35,995 nucleotides of DNA from a virus: positions 1 through 35,995 of IMG/VR virus record IMGVR_UViG_3300000553_004744; one strand, given 5' to 3'. Below are positions 13,574 to 21,453 of the stretch, piece after piece. The notes under the pieces are model-generated. The model ran no database searches. It saw only the letters and a program-made list of their open reading frames with translations, and was not told where the DNA came from. A program made the translations under genes and the position numbers. How positions within the stretch are numbered: position 1 is the first letter of the stretch; each line of letters opens with the position of its first letter.

Positions 13574-14425
13574 TTAACTTGGTTCAGCGGTTTTGTCTGC
13601 ATAAATAACAAGGGTTTTATCCGGACGCATGATCTTCCCGCCGAATACATATTTCCCTTTAACCGCGTCTTCAAAACGCTTTTCAGGCCTGAATGCTTCA
13701 ACGTCAAGAATAACATCTGCATAGGAAAAGCTTTCACCGCGTATTCCACAGATTAATCTTGATTTATCCCAAGCAGAGGAATTTTTAGAAATATTGTTAC
13801 TGCAAATGATGTCAAAATTATGGCGTCTGGTAACTACAGAATTATCATACAATTGATCGTTCTGTGTTTTTACCGCCAAGCCTGCAAGAATTAATTTTGT
13901 ATAGAACCATTCAGGTATAATCGCAAATCTGTTAGCTTTAGGAATTTTTGCTTCCGACATTTTTTCCGATGCTTCCAAAAGGACGTCGTCAACATTCAGC
14001 GAGGTAACATCCACCGGGGAATCATTGGTATAAAGTGAAAGTCCGCACTGTGCATATAATCCGGCTAAAAATTGATCGGCTGCTTCTGCAAAACCAAAGC
14101 CCGCATTGTTGGTGGCCTGACGCAATAATTCTGCCTTCGCTTGAACTGCATCTACATCGTTCATTGAGATGTTAAAATAATAAGCTTTATTCGCAATCAA
14201 TGTAGATACTGCATCATCCAATTTTTCAGGTGCTGCAATATCGGTATCGCGCGTATATTCATTTATAGTGGGGTTCCCAATTGTTAAAATTCTAACGGAA
14301 TCCCCGAGGTTCTTTAATTGCCCCTCGTAATTATTATTAGCAACCGATTTAAAAACAAGCACGTTTTGCAATGCCTGCATTATATTGGCCGCCCAAACTG
14401 TTCGAATAAAATTTAAAAACGACAT
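13574..14425 (-). CDS. Major capsid protein, P22 coat-like
   Basis: 283 residues from ATG 14425, chosen over GTG 14431 because GGAG sits five bases upstream. The N-terminus (SFLNFIRTVWAANIMQALQN), the 'GDSVRILTIGNPTINEYTRD' segment, 'NKAYYFNISMNDVDAVQAKA' and 'IPKANRFAIIPEWFYTKLIL' match the HK97-fold coat proteins of the P22 gp5-like group. It builds the icosahedral head on the scaffold encoded just upstream. It is on the short side compared with P22 coat (430 aa), lacking a large insertion domain. Twelve bases separate it from the scaffold gene. Confidence 0.88.
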   Translation of the reverse strand: MSFLNFIRTVWAANIMQALQNVLVFKSVANNNYEGQLKNLGDSVRILTIGNPTINEYTRDTDIAAPEKLDDAVSTLIANKAYYFNISMNDVDAVQAKAELLRQATNNAGFGFAEAADQFLAGLYAQCGLSLYTNDSPVDVTSLNVDDVLLEASEKMSEAKIPKANRFAIIPEWFYTKLILAGLAVKTQNDQLYDNSVVTRRHNFDIICSNNISKNSSAWDKSRLICGIRGESFSYADVILDVEAFRPEKRFEDAVKGKYVFGGKIMRPDKTLVIYADKTAEPS

Positions 14426-14437
14426 GTTCACTCCATG

Positions 14438-15133
14438 TTATGTATTATTAGCTAAACTTTTATTTACCTTGTCAAGATTAGCCGAAACTTCTGCCTGGCT
14501 CATCGCTGCTATCTGCTCATGTGTATAATAATCACCAGATGCATTTCCAGCGCCCCTATTAGGAGGATTGCCCTGCACTTTAATTTCGCCAAACATGACT
14601 TTGTAGTTTTCCTGAAATGGTTTTAAAATACTATCAGCATCTTTTATTTTGCCGTCAACAATTTCTAATTTCTCCAGAGGATGTTTTGCTTCAAACTCCC
14701 TGACGAGGGTAGGGATGTAAGCTTCATTGGCTTTTAAACCGCGAAGTATATTTTCCACAACAGAACGTTTTGAAGAAAGAACCAATTGTGCTTCTTTCTC
14801 CGCGTTTGTTTTCTCTACATTCGCTAACTTGTCAGTAATTTCCTTTAGTTTGTCCTCAACAGTCTTAACCCCGTTTTCTTTCTCTTTAACTGCAGATGCT
14901 AAATCTGCCTTAACTTTAGTAAGGTTCTCTTTTGAAGCGGCAAGTTCTTTTTCAAGGTCGGATTTTTTATTGTTAACTTCATCAAACCGGCTTTTGGGAA
15001 TCAGTTTTCCGTCATCTTCAATAAATTTCTTGCCTTCAAATTTTGCGGTAATTTGTTTTTTAACATCATCATCGGCTTTAGAAAAAAGCAAATTGAAAAG
15101 ATTTTCTCCTAATAATAGTTTTAACCAATCCAT
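14438..15133 (-). CDS. Capsid scaffolding protein
   Basis: 231 residues from ATG 15133; GGAG lies just upstream inside the first codons of a longer frame starting at 15145. The 'DGKLIPKSRFDEVNNKKSDL' element followed by a long coiled coil (to about residue 120) is characteristic of GP20-type scaffold proteins, and the C-terminus ends with a Gly/Asn linker and 'YYTHEQIAAMSQAEV', a helix often used to bind the coat. It directs coat assembly and is removed before DNA entry. First gene after the hairpin-promoter element at 15244-15291. Confidence 0.86.
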   Translation of the reverse strand: MDWLKLLLGENLFNLLFSKADDDVKKQITAKFEGKKFIEDDGKLIPKSRFDEVNNKKSDLEKELAASKENLTKVKADLASAVKEKENGVKTVEDKLKEITDKLANVEKTNAEKEAQLVLSSKRSVVENILRGLKANEAYIPTLVREFEAKHPLEKLEIVDGKIKDADSILKPFQENYKVMFGEIKVQGNPPNRGAGNASGDYYTHEQIAAMSQAEVSANLDKVNKSLANNT

Positions 15134-15243
15134 TTTGAACTCCATTTATTTTTTTTCTGATTACACTTTTTACCCGGTTGTGTCCGGTTATCGTCTTTCG
15201 CATATCGCCGCGAAATACCAAAGTTGCTGTTATTTGCTGTGAT

Positions 15244-15291
15244 TAAGGTAGAAATTTAAAAAGCCGTTGTCATCCTAATTTTCTTTAGGAT
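15244..15291 (-). promoter_or_regulatory. Hairpin plus promoter-like element, copy 1
   Basis: A 48-base element, 38/48 identical without gaps to 21406-21453. Reading the minus strand: a stem ATCCTAA/TTAGGAT (15272-15291, six-base loop) directly after the MuF gene, then TGACAA (15267-15272), 16 bases, and TACCTT (15245-15250), resembling -35 and -10 boxes. The scaffold start is about 110 bases downstream. It probably drives or re-initiates structural gene transcription. About 100 bases of untranslated leader follow, in which I see no gene. Confidence 0.6.
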
Positions 15292-15292
15292 T

Positions 15293-16237
15293 TTAATTCA
15301 GGCGGGCAGTTTTCCATTTTTCATAGGTATCCATAGAGACAATTGTCCGATCTATCTGATTACGCCTATAGCGGTACTCCAAGCCCTTAAATTGCTGTAT
15401 CATCGTGCAATGGCAATGAATATCCTCTTCGGCAATACCACTTAAACCCGGCCCGGGGGTCTTTACCCCGGAAGGAAGGGTAAAAACATTATTAACCGCC
15501 GCCTTCATATCCATTCGTATATGCCCCGGGCGCGGCACCTTTGCTCTGTTAGAGTGTATCCATAGGAGTTGCACCTCTATTCCAAGATTTGCAGCTGCAT
15601 TTTCTACCCTGCTAAAAGATGAGAGAGCACCTGCATTCTGCACCCGGTGTGCTTCTGTCTGCACTATAAGAGAGGCTTTTGAAGCGGCAATATTCGTTTT
15701 ATCCGTTATTGCCTTAGCAATTTTTACATAACCTTTTCCCTGAATAAGGCCCTGTGTTATTTCCGTTCTTATCTGCTGGTTAAGCTGTTGTATATGCCCG
15801 CTGAATCTTTCGGGCCATGTAATGCGGTCAAGTGAATTAAGAACCGATGCTTCAATTGTTTTTTCATTAAGCAACCCGAAACCTAATTTTGCGCCAATAG
15901 AGGTTTCAAGAACAAAACCTGTGTAATAATAATTTTCTGAATAAATTTCTTTAATAGCTTCTTTTATGGTTTTAATTCCCTGCACATTCAGTTTTTTAAG
16001 TATTTGAGCTATTTGATATTCCAGATTAGTCAAACGGTTATATGCAACCATATCGGGAAATTTAATATCCGTTCCATATTTTTCATACATCTTTGCAATC
16101 TGCAGGCGTATTTCATCAAGAGCTTTTTTATAATTTTCAATAAGCGTTTTCCTGAAACCGGCCAATAATTTATCGGTATTAGTTCCAGCTTTAGAAAGAA
16201 GTTGAGCTATATATTTGTTCCATTCATCATCGTTCAT
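15293..16237 (-). CDS. MuF-like minor head protein
   Basis: 314 residues, start ATG 16237 overlapping the portal gene by 4 bases. The C-terminal region has the Mu F/SPP1 gp7 signature: 'ASLIVQTEAHRVQNAGALSS', 'LLWIHSNRAKVPRPGHIRMD' and the 'DIHCHC' metal-like motif. These proteins sit inside the head attached to the portal and may be ejected with the DNA. No toxin domain is fused to the C-terminus. Its stop codon borders the hairpin of the repeated regulatory element. Confidence 0.87.
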   Translation of the reverse strand: MNDDEWNKYIAQLLSKAGTNTDKLLAGFRKTLIENYKKALDEIRLQIAKMYEKYGTDIKFPDMVAYNRLTNLEYQIAQILKKLNVQGIKTIKEAIKEIYSENYYYTGFVLETSIGAKLGFGLLNEKTIEASVLNSLDRITWPERFSGHIQQLNQQIRTEITQGLIQGKGYVKIAKAITDKTNIAASKASLIVQTEAHRVQNAGALSSFSRVENAAANLGIEVQLLWIHSNRAKVPRPGHIRMDMKAAVNNVFTLPSGVKTPGPGLSGIAEEDIHCHCTMIQQFKGLEYRYRRNQIDRTIVSMDTYEKWKTARLN

Positions 16238-17676
16238 TGAGCATTCCCCGCATCAAGGTTTATATTCCTATTTGCCCGCTCTGTTTCTAAATCTTTAACA
16301 GCATCATCAACATTTTTTATCCAAGGATGGTTTGCTAAAATTATTTTCTCAGGAATTATACCAAGTGAATTCTGGCAATTGGTTATTTGCTCGGTCTCAT
16401 TGATGAGCATATTCTTACTGAACGTTATTTCCAAATCCGCTTCATTAAAAACAAAACTAGGTTCTTCAAAAAATAATTTCCATTTTATGAGTTCGCTTAT
16501 TACATCCTCAAGGCGGTTGATTAAAGCATTTGCTTTAATGTCCAGTCGCATATATTGCGACTTGATTACAACTGTAACGATATTTCCCCCTTTCTGGTCT
16601 TTATCGAAATTCAATCCATGGCCGAACTTGTAAATATTTTCCTCAATTATTTCGAGTAGTTTAACTTTTGCCTCTACCGGAATTTCCAGAGTATGCGGCG
16701 TTACGTGTCCCTCTTCCGAAACCTTAATAGCTTTGAACTTCCGGAGGTTCGTCATAAATTCTGCAAGTTTTTCTCCCGCATAGCCGCCGAGCTCCCAAAT
16801 TGCATCCTGTATATCTTCAATGTTGTTTGCGAAACCGGAAAAAATAAGATCATAGAGGTCTATAAGGCCTTTAATAGGTTTTAGATCAGTAAATCCGTTA
16901 TTGTTATTCGAAAGTTTTATAAATGGAGGCACACCCCAGCTTTTACCTTCTGATGAAAGCACTTCCTCTCCCATTTTTTGTGATACCACCCAATGAGGGC
17001 GGGGGTTGGGGTTTTCAGATGCATCGGGAATAAATTCTCCTTTATCATTTTCGATGTAAAAGTAAACCAAATCCTTTGTCCAAATTTCTACTTTCAACTT
17101 CTGAGTAAGTTTTCCCACATCATCAATGCTGTCGACTTTGTAATATCGCAAGATGCTTATTAAATTGTTTTTATATGTATCATCATAATCGGGAATTATT
17201 TCCTCTGCAGGGATGATAATATAATCGAACTCCCCTTTATCATTGATGAAGAAATGAAGCCATTCTTCCCCTTTGTTTGAGGCATTAGTAGCAAGGTCTG
17301 TAAGGGTGCGCCTGAAATATTTATCTTGCAACTCTTTAATTTTTGCTCCTAGGGTTGTATTTTTAGAAGCAATGCTAATCTGATTGGTAAGAATGTACTC
17401 TATTTTTTGATCTACCAATTCAGCGTGAAACGAATTAGGCACTTTATTATTCGAAGCATTCGGATCCAATTCTTCTTTTCCGTCAACGATGTATTTACGG
17501 AAATCCCGTTTCATAATATCATGCTTGCTTTTATAATAATTAATGCCGTCCAGCATGTCATTTTTTTTCTCTGACCTAATATCCCGGTCTATAATGCCGC
17601 GAATAAGTTTGGAGTCGGAAATTATTTTTTCAACTGCTATTTTTAATAATATCTGTTCTGTTTGCCCGAAATACAT
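16234..17676 (-). CDS. Portal protein (SPP1 gp6-like)
   Basis: 480 residues, typical for SPP1/HK97-type portals. Recognisable parts are 'NKVPNSFHAELVDQKIEYIL' (N-terminal wing), 'EWLHFFINDKGEFDYIIIPA', the 'FANNIEDIQDAIWELGGYAG' region and 'LEDVISELIKWKLF' near the clip/stem. It forms the dodecameric ring at one head vertex through which the terminase pumps DNA. It lies 10 bases after TerL and overlaps the MuF gene by 4 bases, standard packaging order. Confidence 0.88.
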   Translation of the reverse strand: MYFGQTEQILLKIAVEKIISDSKLIRGIIDRDIRSEKKNDMLDGINYYKSKHDIMKRDFRKYIVDGKEELDPNASNNKVPNSFHAELVDQKIEYILTNQISIASKNTTLGAKIKELQDKYFRRTLTDLATNASNKGEEWLHFFINDKGEFDYIIIPAEEIIPDYDDTYKNNLISILRYYKVDSIDDVGKLTQKLKVEIWTKDLVYFYIENDKGEFIPDASENPNPRPHWVVSQKMGEEVLSSEGKSWGVPPFIKLSNNNNGFTDLKPIKGLIDLYDLIFSGFANNIEDIQDAIWELGGYAGEKLAEFMTNLRKFKAIKVSEEGHVTPHTLEIPVEAKVKLLEIIEENIYKFGHGLNFDKDQKGGNIVTVVIKSQYMRLDIKANALINRLEDVISELIKWKLFFEEPSFVFNEADLEITFSKNMLINETEQITNCQNSLGIIPEKIILANHPWIKNVDDAVKDLETERANRNINLDAGNAQ

Positions 17677-17686
17677 TTTTATACCT

Positions 17687-19120
17687 TTAAGTTAATATTT
17701 CAATTGAATTCTTTTTATTTATAGTTTCCGCTACGCCTGTAGTTGCATCAGGCGCATCGTCGTGTTTATTCTTTCCTTCTTTCTGATAGGTGGACATGGC
17801 TTTATAATATCCCGGCCATTTATCTTTCCAATTGACCGGGAAATAAATATGATTTTGTACAAATGATGAGTTGGTTAAAATGCGGGAAATCTTGTTATCG
17901 GATTGATGGAACCATTTTACCATTGTTCTTCTTGTTTTATGGATTTCCCAAAGCAGCCTTTCAACATTACGCGCAAAGCCCCGCCCTCCATTATTACTCT
18001 CAATAATTGCGCTAGTTACACTATCTTCATTCAGCATTTTAGCTGTCTCAGGTTCAGTAAATTCCATTGGCTCTTTGGTATAGAGGATATTTAAAATATA
18101 TGCCTCTCCTTGATAGACGCCATAATTTATTGAACAAAGATAATCAGCACCTTCGTCGGCTGTATCTGTATAATTTTTTATTGATTCAAATAAAATTTTT
18201 CCTTTTTCATCGCGCGGGTAATCTGTATAGGTTTTGAAGGATTGGTATAAACGGCCCTTGAGATCAATTGGTTCATTCTGATAATTCGCAAGAAAGATTT
18301 CCATCATCATCATGCTCTTGAGGGTTTCATAGCGCGATTTGTTTAATAACTCCGGGCAAAGCATTGAATTGGTTTTTTCATCATAAGCCTTCATAGATAG
18401 GACATACCAATCATTTGCTTTTTCCCCGGCGAGAATCCTGCCACATAGATCGTTCTTTGACCAACGTGTCATTACAGTAATTTCAAGTGGTTCACCCCCT
18501 TTGGCACTTACACGTGAAAGGAAAGTACTTGTATACCATTTCCAAATATTATCAAGGGCATTTTCATTCATGGCTACTTCTGCTGATTTTATGGGATCGT
18601 CTATAATTAATATTGTGCCCCCTTTACCAGTTATACTTCCACCAATTCCGGCACCAAGATAATTGAAATGCTGATCTTCCAATGCCCATTCGTCATAGGC
18701 GGCATTGCCTTGTTTTATTTTTGTTTCAGGGAATATATCGGAAAAAACTATTTCGTCTTCAAGTTTCTTTTCCTGAATACCATCGCGGGTATAGCGTGAA
18801 AAATCATGGGCGGCATTATCGTTATAAGAACATGATATTATTCTTTCTTCATTGTTTTTACCTAAAACCCATTGGCAGAATTTTATTAAAGTTCTTGATT
18901 TTCCATGCTGAGGAGGCATATTAATCATAATTTTTTTATAAGGAGTTCCGTCAGGTTTTAATAATTGGCCTGTATACAAACAATGTAATATATTACATAA
19001 CTCTTGCAGATGAGTCCTTTCCTGCAAATAAAATTCCGGAGAAGTTAACGAGCAATAGTCATAGAACAGGCGGCGTGCCAATTCAAGATAGGCCTCGTTA
19101 CTGAGGTGTTTTATTTCCAT
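17687..19120 (-). CDS. Terminase large subunit
   Basis: 477 residues from ATG 19120 (a TTG at 19138 would add six). ATPase motifs are clear: Walker A 'MPPQHGKS' at 68-75, Walker B 'TILIIDDP' at 169-176, and the coupling motif 'TVMTRWS' near 215-221. The C-terminal half carries the RNase H-like nuclease with acidic residues in 'DTADEGADYLCSINYGVYQG', 'SAIIESNNGG' and 'HDDAPDA'. The enzyme cuts concatemeric DNA and powers its packaging through the portal. Head-full type P22/SPP1-like relatives are likely. Overlaps the small subunit gene by 23 bases. Confidence 0.93.
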   Translation of the reverse strand: MEIKHLSNEAYLELARRLFYDYCSLTSPEFYLQERTHLQELCNILHCLYTGQLLKPDGTPYKKIMINMPPQHGKSRTLIKFCQWVLGKNNEERIISCSYNDNAAHDFSRYTRDGIQEKKLEDEIVFSDIFPETKIKQGNAAYDEWALEDQHFNYLGAGIGGSITGKGGTILIIDDPIKSAEVAMNENALDNIWKWYTSTFLSRVSAKGGEPLEITVMTRWSKNDLCGRILAGEKANDWYVLSMKAYDEKTNSMLCPELLNKSRYETLKSMMMMEIFLANYQNEPIDLKGRLYQSFKTYTDYPRDEKGKILFESIKNYTDTADEGADYLCSINYGVYQGEAYILNILYTKEPMEFTEPETAKMLNEDSVTSAIIESNNGGRGFARNVERLLWEIHKTRRTMVKWFHQSDNKISRILTNSSFVQNHIYFPVNWKDKWPGYYKAMSTYQKEGKNKHDDAPDATTGVAETINKKNSIEILT

Positions 19121-19610
19121 CTCTGATAAATTGTGCAAGGGCTCTTAATTCCTCTATTGTTAATTTTGATAAATCAGGTTTTGTATTAACATTTGCATTT
19201 ATATTCAATTCGTCAATGTATAAGCCATTAAGTTTATCTCTGTCTTTTGCAACTTCAAGCGCCAATTTTAAATCAGCAACTAAAATTAAATTTCCTTTAT
19301 CGTCTCTTAGGTCTTTATTAAAAATAAATGACGGACTAATTGCTTTCATATATAAAAATTCTCTATCTCTGATAGCTTTAGTAAAAGCAATATTTTTATC
19401 CTTCTGTCCTAATTTTCGTATTTCTTTTTTTGCTTCTCCAATATACCGCTGTGCCGTCCTTATTGATATTGAGAATTGGGTCATTACAATATTGCATAAT
19501 TCTTTATTCCTTTTGGATTGCAAATACCTATCGTTCTCAAGAATGAGTTTAATAATCCCATCAACCCGGACCCAAACAATATCAGTATGTTCCGTATCGG
19601 CCTTTGGCAT
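19098..19610 (-). CDS. Terminase small subunit
   Basis: 170 residues immediately before TerL. An N-terminal HTH-like region is seen in 'MTQFSISIRTAQRYIGEAKK', followed by a long helical centre ('ADLKLALEVAKDRDKLNGLY') and the C-terminal 'LSKLTIEELRALAQFI' that often ends small terminases. It should recognise the pac/cos region and recruit TerL. Its start overlaps the glycosyltransferase stop by one base, linking packaging to the upstream DNA-modification-type genes. Confidence 0.82.
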   Translation of the reverse strand: MPKADTEHTDIVWVRVDGIIKLILENDRYLQSKRNKELCNIVMTQFSISIRTAQRYIGEAKKEIRKLGQKDKNIAFTKAIRDREFLYMKAISPSFIFNKDLRDDKGNLILVADLKLALEVAKDRDKLNGLYIDELNINANVNTKPDLSKLTIEELRALAQFIRDGNKTPQ

Positions 19611-20512
19611 TATTGCATTTCCTGCTTATTATGATATTCTTCATAAAGTTTATTTAATACCTGGCTTTTTACATCCTTAACTTTTACCAGTGTCATTCCA
19701 TATTCATTTGGTTCTAATTTATCCCAATCAATGTCCGGACGCCTATTTAACGGAGTCTTAAAATCTCTCCATTGATTTTTTATTACATGCTGGGGCCGCC
19801 CAAAGCGCCATTTGGTCTCAACAATTCCAGGCCGCATTTCTTCCAGTGAACGTGCCATTTTCAATCTTCCATCGCCTTTATACAAAGCATCTGAATTACC
19901 TCCTTTCATAGTCATGGTGCGAATTTTCTTTATCATGAAGGCATTGATAAGTACTGTACACCAATTATTCGTAAGCACTTGTAGGCATAAGTCTGTATCT
20001 TCGTTATATCTTAAGCGCCAGCGATACGGCAAATCATTTAATATTAAGAGTGATGAATAAACATGGCAATTCAAAGTAAAAGGCGTTCTATTTTGTGTGC
20101 ATGGTAAAAACATTTCATAATTAAATCCGGATATTGCAATGTTTGTATATCGGTCGGTAAAATCTTCCACTACTTTCATGGCAATATTTGCATTACAGCG
20201 GATCTTCATATTTTTATATCGGCGTGCAATCCATGAAATATTGTCGTCGAAAATCCAATGGCGTTTATGACCTGTAGATTTTGCATGTTCCCACACCCAG
20301 TTACGTGCAGGCATTCCACCAAGTCCCAGATTTGAAAAAGGTAAAATCAAAACTCGGTCGCCGAATTCTTTCCGGTATAATTCCTCTTCTTGCGGTTCAA
20401 CTACTAATTTGAAATCAACATTATCGGAAATAAAAAACTTAGCAGTCAAGCAACAATCATGACGGCCTTTCGAAATGATATAAACGGGATATTTTGGCTT
20501 AACTGTTTTCAT
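19610..20512 (-). CDS. TET-associated-type glycosyltransferase (TAGT-like)
   Basis: 300 residues from ATG 20512 (an earlier TTG at 20524 is possible). Motifs fit the TAGT family of phage glycosyltransferases linked to modified DNA bases: 'YPVYIISKGRHD' at 9-19, 'FKLVVEPQEE' at 34-43, 'ARNWVWEHA' at 69-77, the acidic nucleotide-sugar site 'WIFDDN' at 86-91, 'RYNEDTDLCLQ' at 168-178 and 'KWRFGRPQHV' at 234-243. It would transfer a sugar from a nucleotide sugar, presumably to a hydroxylated base. No TET/JBP enzyme or hydroxymethylase is encoded here, so the acceptor is unknown. It lies between a ParB-like gene and TerS, with overlaps to both, so it is made with the packaging proteins. Confidence 0.75.
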   Translation of the reverse strand: MKTVKPKYPVYIISKGRHDCCLTAKFFISDNVDFKLVVEPQEEELYRKEFGDRVLILPFSNLGLGGMPARNWVWEHAKSTGHKRHWIFDDNISWIARRYKNMKIRCNANIAMKVVEDFTDRYTNIAISGFNYEMFLPCTQNRTPFTLNCHVYSSLLILNDLPYRWRLRYNEDTDLCLQVLTNNWCTVLINAFMIKKIRTMTMKGGNSDALYKGDGRLKMARSLEEMRPGIVETKWRFGRPQHVIKNQWRDFKTPLNRRPDIDWDKLEPNEYGMTLVKVKDVKSQVLNKLYEEYHNKQEMQ

Positions 20513-21164
20513 GATCCGATTCAAATTTTAATGAGGCTAAATCGTTTTGAATTCTTACTGGCCAGCGTATAGATAAAACTTTACCCTTTTTTATGAAACC
20601 GGTTTCAACGTTGATCATTTCTAAAAAAGCTTTACGATTCTCTTCATCTTCGAAAAGCACAACTAACCGGATGGGTTCTAAACCGTCTTCATAAAGAGGC
20701 AAGCCTTGCCATTCATCTTGGTGGTTTATAAAATTAACTTTATCGCTATTAAGTGAAGTTGGAATGCTTATTTCATTTATACGAAGAGTAGCTGCGAGAT
20801 CGGGAGTTTTTAAGTTTATTTCATTTATTAAGAGTTTTAACTCAGAAGTAAATTCGCCTTGTAATTTTGGATTATTCGCGGCAATATTAGCTGCCTTTTC
20901 CTTCTGTTCGTCCCAGTTAACTATGCGAATTGAAAATTCACCAATTGGAGTTATGATCTTTTCATTTACGATTTGGCACTCACCGAATTTAGCAGTCAAG
21001 GCTTTCACACGTTGGTGACCGGCTACTAAATTACCTGTGCGTTGATTAAAAACAATTCCCGAAATATCTCCAAACTCTTCAAGGCTGAATTTTAACCCTT
21101 CAAAAGCCGAACCCGTAATTAATCTTGGATTGTATGGTGCGGGATTTAAATCTGTAAGTTTCAT
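20499..21164 (-). CDS. ParB-like protein
   Basis: 221 residues. The N-terminal ~100 residues are a ParB/sulfiredoxin-fold domain: 'LNPAPYNPRLITGSAFEGLK', then 'VAGHQRVKAL' with GHQR at 49-52 (ParB box II). No HTH or ParB dimer domain follows; the C-terminus ('LRLVVLFEDEENRKAFLEMI') is of another type. Single-domain ParB proteins of phages occur next to DNA methylases and base-modifying enzymes and some have CTPase, nuclease or ATPase activity. Here it overlaps the glycosyltransferase gene, suggesting a shared pathway acting on phage DNA before packaging (inference). It overlaps the small HTH gene upstream by 4 bases. Confidence 0.82.
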   Translation of the reverse strand: MKLTDLNPAPYNPRLITGSAFEGLKFSLEEFGDISGIVFNQRTGNLVAGHQRVKALTAKFGECQIVNEKIITPIGEFSIRIVNWDEQKEKAANIAANNPKLQGEFTSELKLLINEINLKTPDLAATLRINEISIPTSLNSDKVNFINHQDEWQGLPLYEDGLEPIRLVVLFEDEENRKAFLEMINVETGFIKKGKVLSIRWPVRIQNDLASLKFESDHENS

Positions 21165-21391
21165 TTCTTTTTCCCATATAAAATAAATTCAATATTTTTA
21201 ATTGACATGTTATATTCCTCTGCCAATTGCTCACGGGCTTTTTTACCCGGAATTTGCTGTTTTCTTTTTTCTTCATATTCAAATTTTATCCTGAAATTAC
21301 GGCAAGCATTTACAGGCGCAAAACCATGCTTACTAAATACGGTTAACAAATCTGCCATCATTTCTTTTGTTATAGAATCAGTATCATTCAT
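21161..21391 (-). CDS. Small HTH-like protein heading the packaging operon
   Basis: 76 residues with GGAG before ATG 21391. The C-terminal half, 'GKKAREQLAEEYNMSIKNIE' then 'FILYGKKK', reads as a helix-turn-helix similar to Mor/C-type activators, though too short for a full Mor protein. It is the first gene downstream of the hairpin-promoter element at 21406-21453 and overlaps the ParB-like gene by 4 bases. It may regulate late transcription or help the terminase, neither shown. Confidence 0.6.
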   Translation of the reverse strand: MNDTDSITKEMMADLLTVFSKHGFAPVNACRNFRIKFEYEEKRKQQIPGKKAREQLAEEYNMSIKNIEFILYGKKK

Positions 21392-21405
21392 AATTCATCT
21401 CCGTA

Positions 21406-21453
21406 TAAGGTAAAAAATCAAAAATGCCTTGTCATCCTAAATAAGTTTAGGAT
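21406..21453 (-). promoter_or_regulatory. Hairpin plus promoter-like element, copy 2
   Basis: The second copy of the 48-base element. On the minus strand the perfect 8-bp stem ATCCTAAA/TTTAGGAT (loop of four; 21434-21453) contains the TAG stop of the nuclease gene, followed by TGACAA (21429-21434), 16 bases, and TACCTT (21407-21412). The first packaging gene starts at 21391, leaving a very short leader of about ten bases if the promoter is used. On the plus strand the hairpin is followed by TTTTT and could stop antisense transcripts. Confidence 0.6.

Follow-up and report, generated by a model that had tools for sequence, protein, structure and literature searches.

Why does a phage carry the same short element twice, once at the head of its packaging genes and once ahead of its scaffold and capsid genes? 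We analysed an IMG/VR virus record, a DNA of 35,995 nt hereafter called the window, in which positions 15244-15291 and 21406-21453, 6162 bp apart, are identical at 38 of 48 bases without gaps. A first-pass annotation had pointed out this duplication, and it proved to be the top-scoring 48-mer pair of the 36-kb window; the runner-up scored 32, and five dinucleotide shuffles gave maxima of 32-34. The pattern ATCCTAA-N-TTAGGATGACAA occurs twice in the window, both times on the minus strand, with 0 occurrences expected. TGACAA-N16-TACCTT, also read by that annotation in each copy, was found in both. A non-exhaustive literature search found nothing on this element.

Both copies, the packaging genes and the head genes lie on the minus strand. 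Each copy contains a putative 20-bp operator (ATCCTAA-N6-TTAGGAT, exact match), with a putative -10 box, TACCTT, 21 nt past it. The operator of copy 1 (15272..15291) begins 1 nt past the MuF stop codon, its -10 box is at 15245..15250, and transcription is predicted to start near 15238. This copy is positioned between the MuF gene and the scaffold gene (14438-15145), whose start is probably 15133 by homology (compared with the related phages L005 and L009); together with the major capsid gene (13574-14431), the scaffold gene spans 13574..15145. The operator of copy 2 (21434..21453) overlaps the stop codon of a 143-aa gene, its -10 box is at 21407..21412, and the predicted start is near 21400. 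Copy 2 had been described as preceding the packaging genes. It does head the packaging operon, but its immediate neighbour is a 76-aa gene, which we call p76 (21161..21391). The rest of the operon (15293..21164) encodes a ParB-like protein, a TAGT glycosyltransferase, a 170-aa presumed small terminase, TerL, an SPP1-like portal and MuF. The presumed small terminase had no family match and was named by gene position. The TAGT (TET-associated glycosyltransferase) family gene at 19610-20524 on the minus strand hints at modified phage DNA.

Scanning viral contigs with a first pattern produced 13 loci; six were kept (L003, L005, L007, L009, L010 and L014) and seven dropped. The six kept loci have GACAA-N16-TANNTT in common, and L007, which repeats L003, was omitted from later tables. 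Loci L025, L026, L027 and L023 were set aside as chance, although L023 does precede a scaffold-like gene. Since the first scan required GACAA, relatives were then sought via the MuF protein, which yielded 48 loci, some on records already in the set. In L031, L033, L039/L040 and L041, the element again lies between MuF and scaffold, with arms that are partly changed and still match each other; a separate terminator-like hairpin with a T run is found upstream of it in L031 and L033. Extra genes lie between MuF and the element in L009 (9467-11484), and the element stays with the scaffold. Because this insertion separates it from MuF, the element belongs to the scaffold. A copy upstream of p76 was identified in L003, L005, L009, L031, L040, L010, L032 and L041. 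By eye, we also noticed a small nuclease-like gene just upstream of the p76 promoter at L031:51-323, L085:1152-1424 (minus strand) and L003:1581-1895, in the place taken by the 143-aa endonuclease-like gene of the window.

Across 46 records, TCCTAN{4,10}TAGGA-N22-TANNNT matched 17 times, always on the strand of the genes and in 10 of the records; its reversed control gave one match, in the window. Two matches each were found in the window, L003, L005, L009, L010, L031 and L041; L032 had the p76 copy only, and the short fragments L014 and L033 had the scaffold copy only. Some phages carry another operator: L040 has two TTCCAA/TTGGAA sites, the fragment L039 has one, and L042 has one identical, non-palindromic 20-mer at both places. 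An operator is present at p76 in 10 of the 12 phages with p76, and all nine of those with the scaffold on the contig have a scaffold partner. No partner site was found in L036 and L049, which have p76 homologs. The remaining 31 records had neither p76, as judged by the profile, nor the TCCTA/TAGGA element, and the TTCCAA form was sought in six records. The first-pass annotation had named absence of conservation in relatives as one half of a refuting outcome; the same pair is present at both places. Its proposal of late promoters is likewise consistent with conserved promoter-like elements ahead of the packaging and the scaffold/capsid genes.

The distance between operator and -10 box was rigid. 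TANNNT starts exactly 21 nt past the operator in all 23 tabulated copies, a count that is not wholly independent because part of these copies were found with patterns including a -10; some other element counts also rest on patterns containing parts of the element. When TCCTA/TAGGA dyads were sought without requiring a -10, 19 were obtained in 17 records, and 17 of the 19 have TANNNT at the fixed distance. The other two dyads (G002:33063 and L003:2706) lack a correctly spaced -10 and were attributed to chance. With the -10 assumed at -12 to -7, CCTAA-N6-TTAGG in the window operator forms a 5-6-5 dyad whose centre falls at -43.5, 31 nt from the -10; relatives with a 5-nt operator spacer have the centre at -43. 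For p76, a predicted 5' leader of 0-14 nt was obtained in eight of the nine copies with a script-located start codon, and one of 31 nt in L010; the script did not locate the start codon in L005 and L009. The predicted scaffold leader is 60-115 nt in 7 of 12 copies with a located start. The rule "operator, 21 nt, TANNNT" can help to find late promoters in related phages.

Two parts of the first reading were not supported. TGACAA had been regarded as a constrained -35 box; it is missing at 10 of 11 p76 copies, the single exception being the window's own. The hairpin had been proposed to act as RNA linked to initiation; folding of the sense-strand RNA was unremarkable (z -0.98 and -1.48, near the shuffle level), and because the shared operator of L042 is not palindromic, a hairpin cannot be the common feature. 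As far as sequence comparison can tell, the conserved core is neither of these; it consists of a 20-bp DNA operator and a TANNNT -10 at a fixed distance of 21 nt.

For a blind test, we took the p76-upstream region of 12 phages and, for each, looked along the rest of that strand for the best-matching 20-mer with identical spacing to any TANNNT. The best partner lay upstream of the scaffold in 9 of the 12. L042 was missed, probably owing to a longer N-terminus, and no partner was found in L036 and L049. Of the 158 control ORFs, 3 reached a partner score of at least 16/20. When 294 genomes from the class of a Chlorobiota genome were searched with the profile, a prophage in G198 emerged that has AACCTAA-N5-TTAGGTT as its p76 copy. 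A second such copy ahead of the scaffold was predicted before this region was examined, and it was then found 118 nt before the scaffold start and more than 3 kb after MuF; the 13 kb read contain no CCTAA/TTAGG dyad besides these two. We rejected a host repeat or host promoter, since the exact-arm element occurs in 1 of 391 genomes of the class of G010 (reversed control, 1).

Other sites were seen in genome contigs. The G264 contig has an operator-like site with correct spacing (L127:1031-1048, minus strand, approximate) about 200 nt after a p76 homolog and before genes for a 144-aa protein and a possible holin-like protein. The extreme end of one contig from a Chlorobiota genome (L024:1-46, and L136) carries a strong element together with a partial leader resembling that of L003; at L024 it adjoins a convergent non-phage gene, and no phage genes were seen there.

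These comparisons define, at the sequence level, a pair of sites with conserved places, conserved spacing and within-phage co-variation. In L040, L042 and G198 the variant operator is found at p76 and at the scaffold alike. Within a phage the two operators are similar, and from one phage to the next they vary in concert, an indication of a trans-acting factor; the two sites very probably form one regulon.

The candidate for this factor is p76, the gene directly after one of the sites. Homologs were found by tblastn at six loci and by profile in 11 of 45 phage records (the window not among them); a single-protein scan of viral contigs confirmed no p76 relative, and tblastn in the phage collection gave none. 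L098 was rejected as a p76 locus, being outside a phage operon. The p76 profile also matched 142 of the 294 class genomes, and most of the 30 loci read encode another conserved protein of about 82 aa; this chromosomal cousin, present in many genomes of the class of G010 (L099-L125), has no operator upstream. The p76 proteins are about 75 aa long. An AlphaFold2 model of p76 has four helices (pLDDT 88.6), and structural comparison gave weak matches, many of which are DNA-binding helical domains; the best Foldseek E value in PDB was 2.9, and the best structural Z was 5.0, to the DNA-binding part of Mu transposase. The last helix contains (S/G)xKx(I/V)(E/Q) in phages with CCTAA-core operators and lacks it in L040 and L042, whose operators differ, in what is a small sample. 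L036 and L049 also have this motif, with no known site.

We consider it probable that p76 is both the binder and the activator of the two promoters, a late-gene activator working like Mor of phage Mu. In this model, p76, probably as a dimer, would bind the 20-bp operator centred at -43.5, take the place of the -35 box and help host RNA polymerase to start at the TANNNT -10. Since the copy 2 site lies directly before p76, the protein would activate its own packaging operon in a positive feedback, and through the copy 1 site it would switch on the scaffold/capsid operon. We infer activation rather than repression from the position of the operator and from the lack of TGACAA at 10 of 11 p76 copies.

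The same location and co-variation would suit any trans-acting regulator, and the operator abuts the -35 region, so that p76 could instead be a repressor, damping its own operon and restraining the capsid operon. Repression is unlikely, because an activator site is known from the literature with its centre at -43.5 (PMC4390567), and p76 promoters without TGACAA would be weak without help. It is distinctly improbable that p76 is a bystander and that the operators are bound by the small terminase, the ParB-like protein or a host factor. A presumed small terminase does lie in the same operon, accompanies the sites and is widespread among relatives, but L038, for one, has such a gene and lacks the sites. 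In the window and in several relatives the gene after p76 encodes ParB, yet L031 and L040 have the pair of sites and no ParB next to p76, which weakens the case for ParB as the binder. Changes that are specific to a phage and affect both its sites are hard to attribute to a host factor. It is very improbable that these are ordinary promoters with a TGACAA -35, each behind an RNA hairpin terminating or protecting the message upstream: ATGACA-N17-TACCTT in the window is a fair sigma-70-like arrangement, and 7 of 12 scaffold copies have GACAA after the operator (5 of the 7 found by a pattern requiring GACAA), but GACAA is present at 1 of 11 p76 copies, L031 and L033 have their own terminator-like hairpins before the element, and both the near-shuffle folding and the non-palindromic L042 operator speak against a role as RNA.

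Past copy 1 lies a predicted 5' leader (15134..15238, minus strand) for the scaffold mRNA, with hairpin A (15196-15215) and hairpin B (15174-15187), both predicted to keep their pairing in L005, L009, L031, L033 and L039. The window, L005 and L039 differ in the inner pairs of hairpin A yet preserve its pairing; when the aligned leaders were given to RNAalifold, hairpin A alone was recovered, with a slightly unfavourable covariation term. In a hand alignment of six leaders, hairpin B takes five different stem sequences, each fully complementary and one of them common to L005 and L009, and TAAAAA follows it after one or two bases in five of the six, with a variant in L031. A possible loop pairing of ACAC with GUGU is consistent with the window, L005 and L009; in L031 it is weak, and inspection of L039 by eye did not show it. 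L003, L014 and L024 have a different leader. A comparison with Rfam gave no match at gathering scores, nor at E values up to 1 over 15100-15320. One might guess that this leader controls scaffold translation.

Bacteroidota-type promoters have a -7 element, TAnnTTTG. The boxes TACCTT and TACATT resemble TAnnTT, but no conserved TTTG at -33 was seen, and three p76 copies have TATAAT. The closer parallel is the Mor-dependent promoter Pm of phage Mu. Its 16-bp site consists of two inverted repeats of 5 bp, separated by 6 bp and centred at -43.5 (PMC4390567), and PMC4287176 gives the same centre; Pm has a -10 box, the -35 is replaced or dispensable, and Mor is a small phage-encoded activator of later genes (PMC4390567, PMC4287176). 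The window operator shares this Mor-type geometry in its 5-6-5 dyad, its centre and its -10 box. The regulators differ in size (76 aa for p76, 129 for Mor), and p76 lies directly behind its own promoter; its predicted targets are the packaging and capsid operons, in phages with relatives in Chlorobiota genomes. The Mor/C family of Pfam (PF08765) matched 0 of 9 records above the curated cut-off, and 1 of 11 p76 members at E 0.051, below the cut-off. The family phrog_836, "late transcriptional activator", matched 3 of 11 members (best E 0.14). With hhalign, p76 against Mu C/Mor had a probability of 9.4, and one comparison reached E 0.0034 over 36 C-terminal columns, with four sequences only on the Mu side. 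Mor was not among the p76 structure matches. Because Pfam membership is lacking and the profile comparison is weak, we say that p76 works like Mor, not that it is a Mor.

The likeness to Mu activator C lies in the weak pairing of the C-terminal parts of C/Mor and p76 and in an activator site near the -35 of late promoters; PMC4461284 places the C site upstream of or overlapping the -35 region in Mu late promoters. There is no significant sequence match, and C drives the lysis, tail and mom promoters, in contrast to the packaging and scaffold operons here. A match to Mor geometry below recognisable sequence similarity raises the question of remote homology or convergence. Tentatively, and at somewhat less than an even chance, p76 may found an undescribed family of minimal (about 75 aa) phage late activators that reached the -43.5 geometry with little or no shared Mor ancestry and diversified in regulator/operator specificity, within a positive-feedback switch in which p76 mRNA is leaderless or nearly so and scaffold mRNA has a structured regulatory leader. 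The diverged operator/regulator pairs (ATCC/GGAT, AACC/GGTT, TTCCAA/TTGGAA and that of L042) are ready material for specificity studies. A two-copy repeat of an uncultivated phage has thus become a testable circuit, consisting of a small protein without family match, a likely operator and two target promoters; its new part is the regulator candidate together with the Mor-like geometry.
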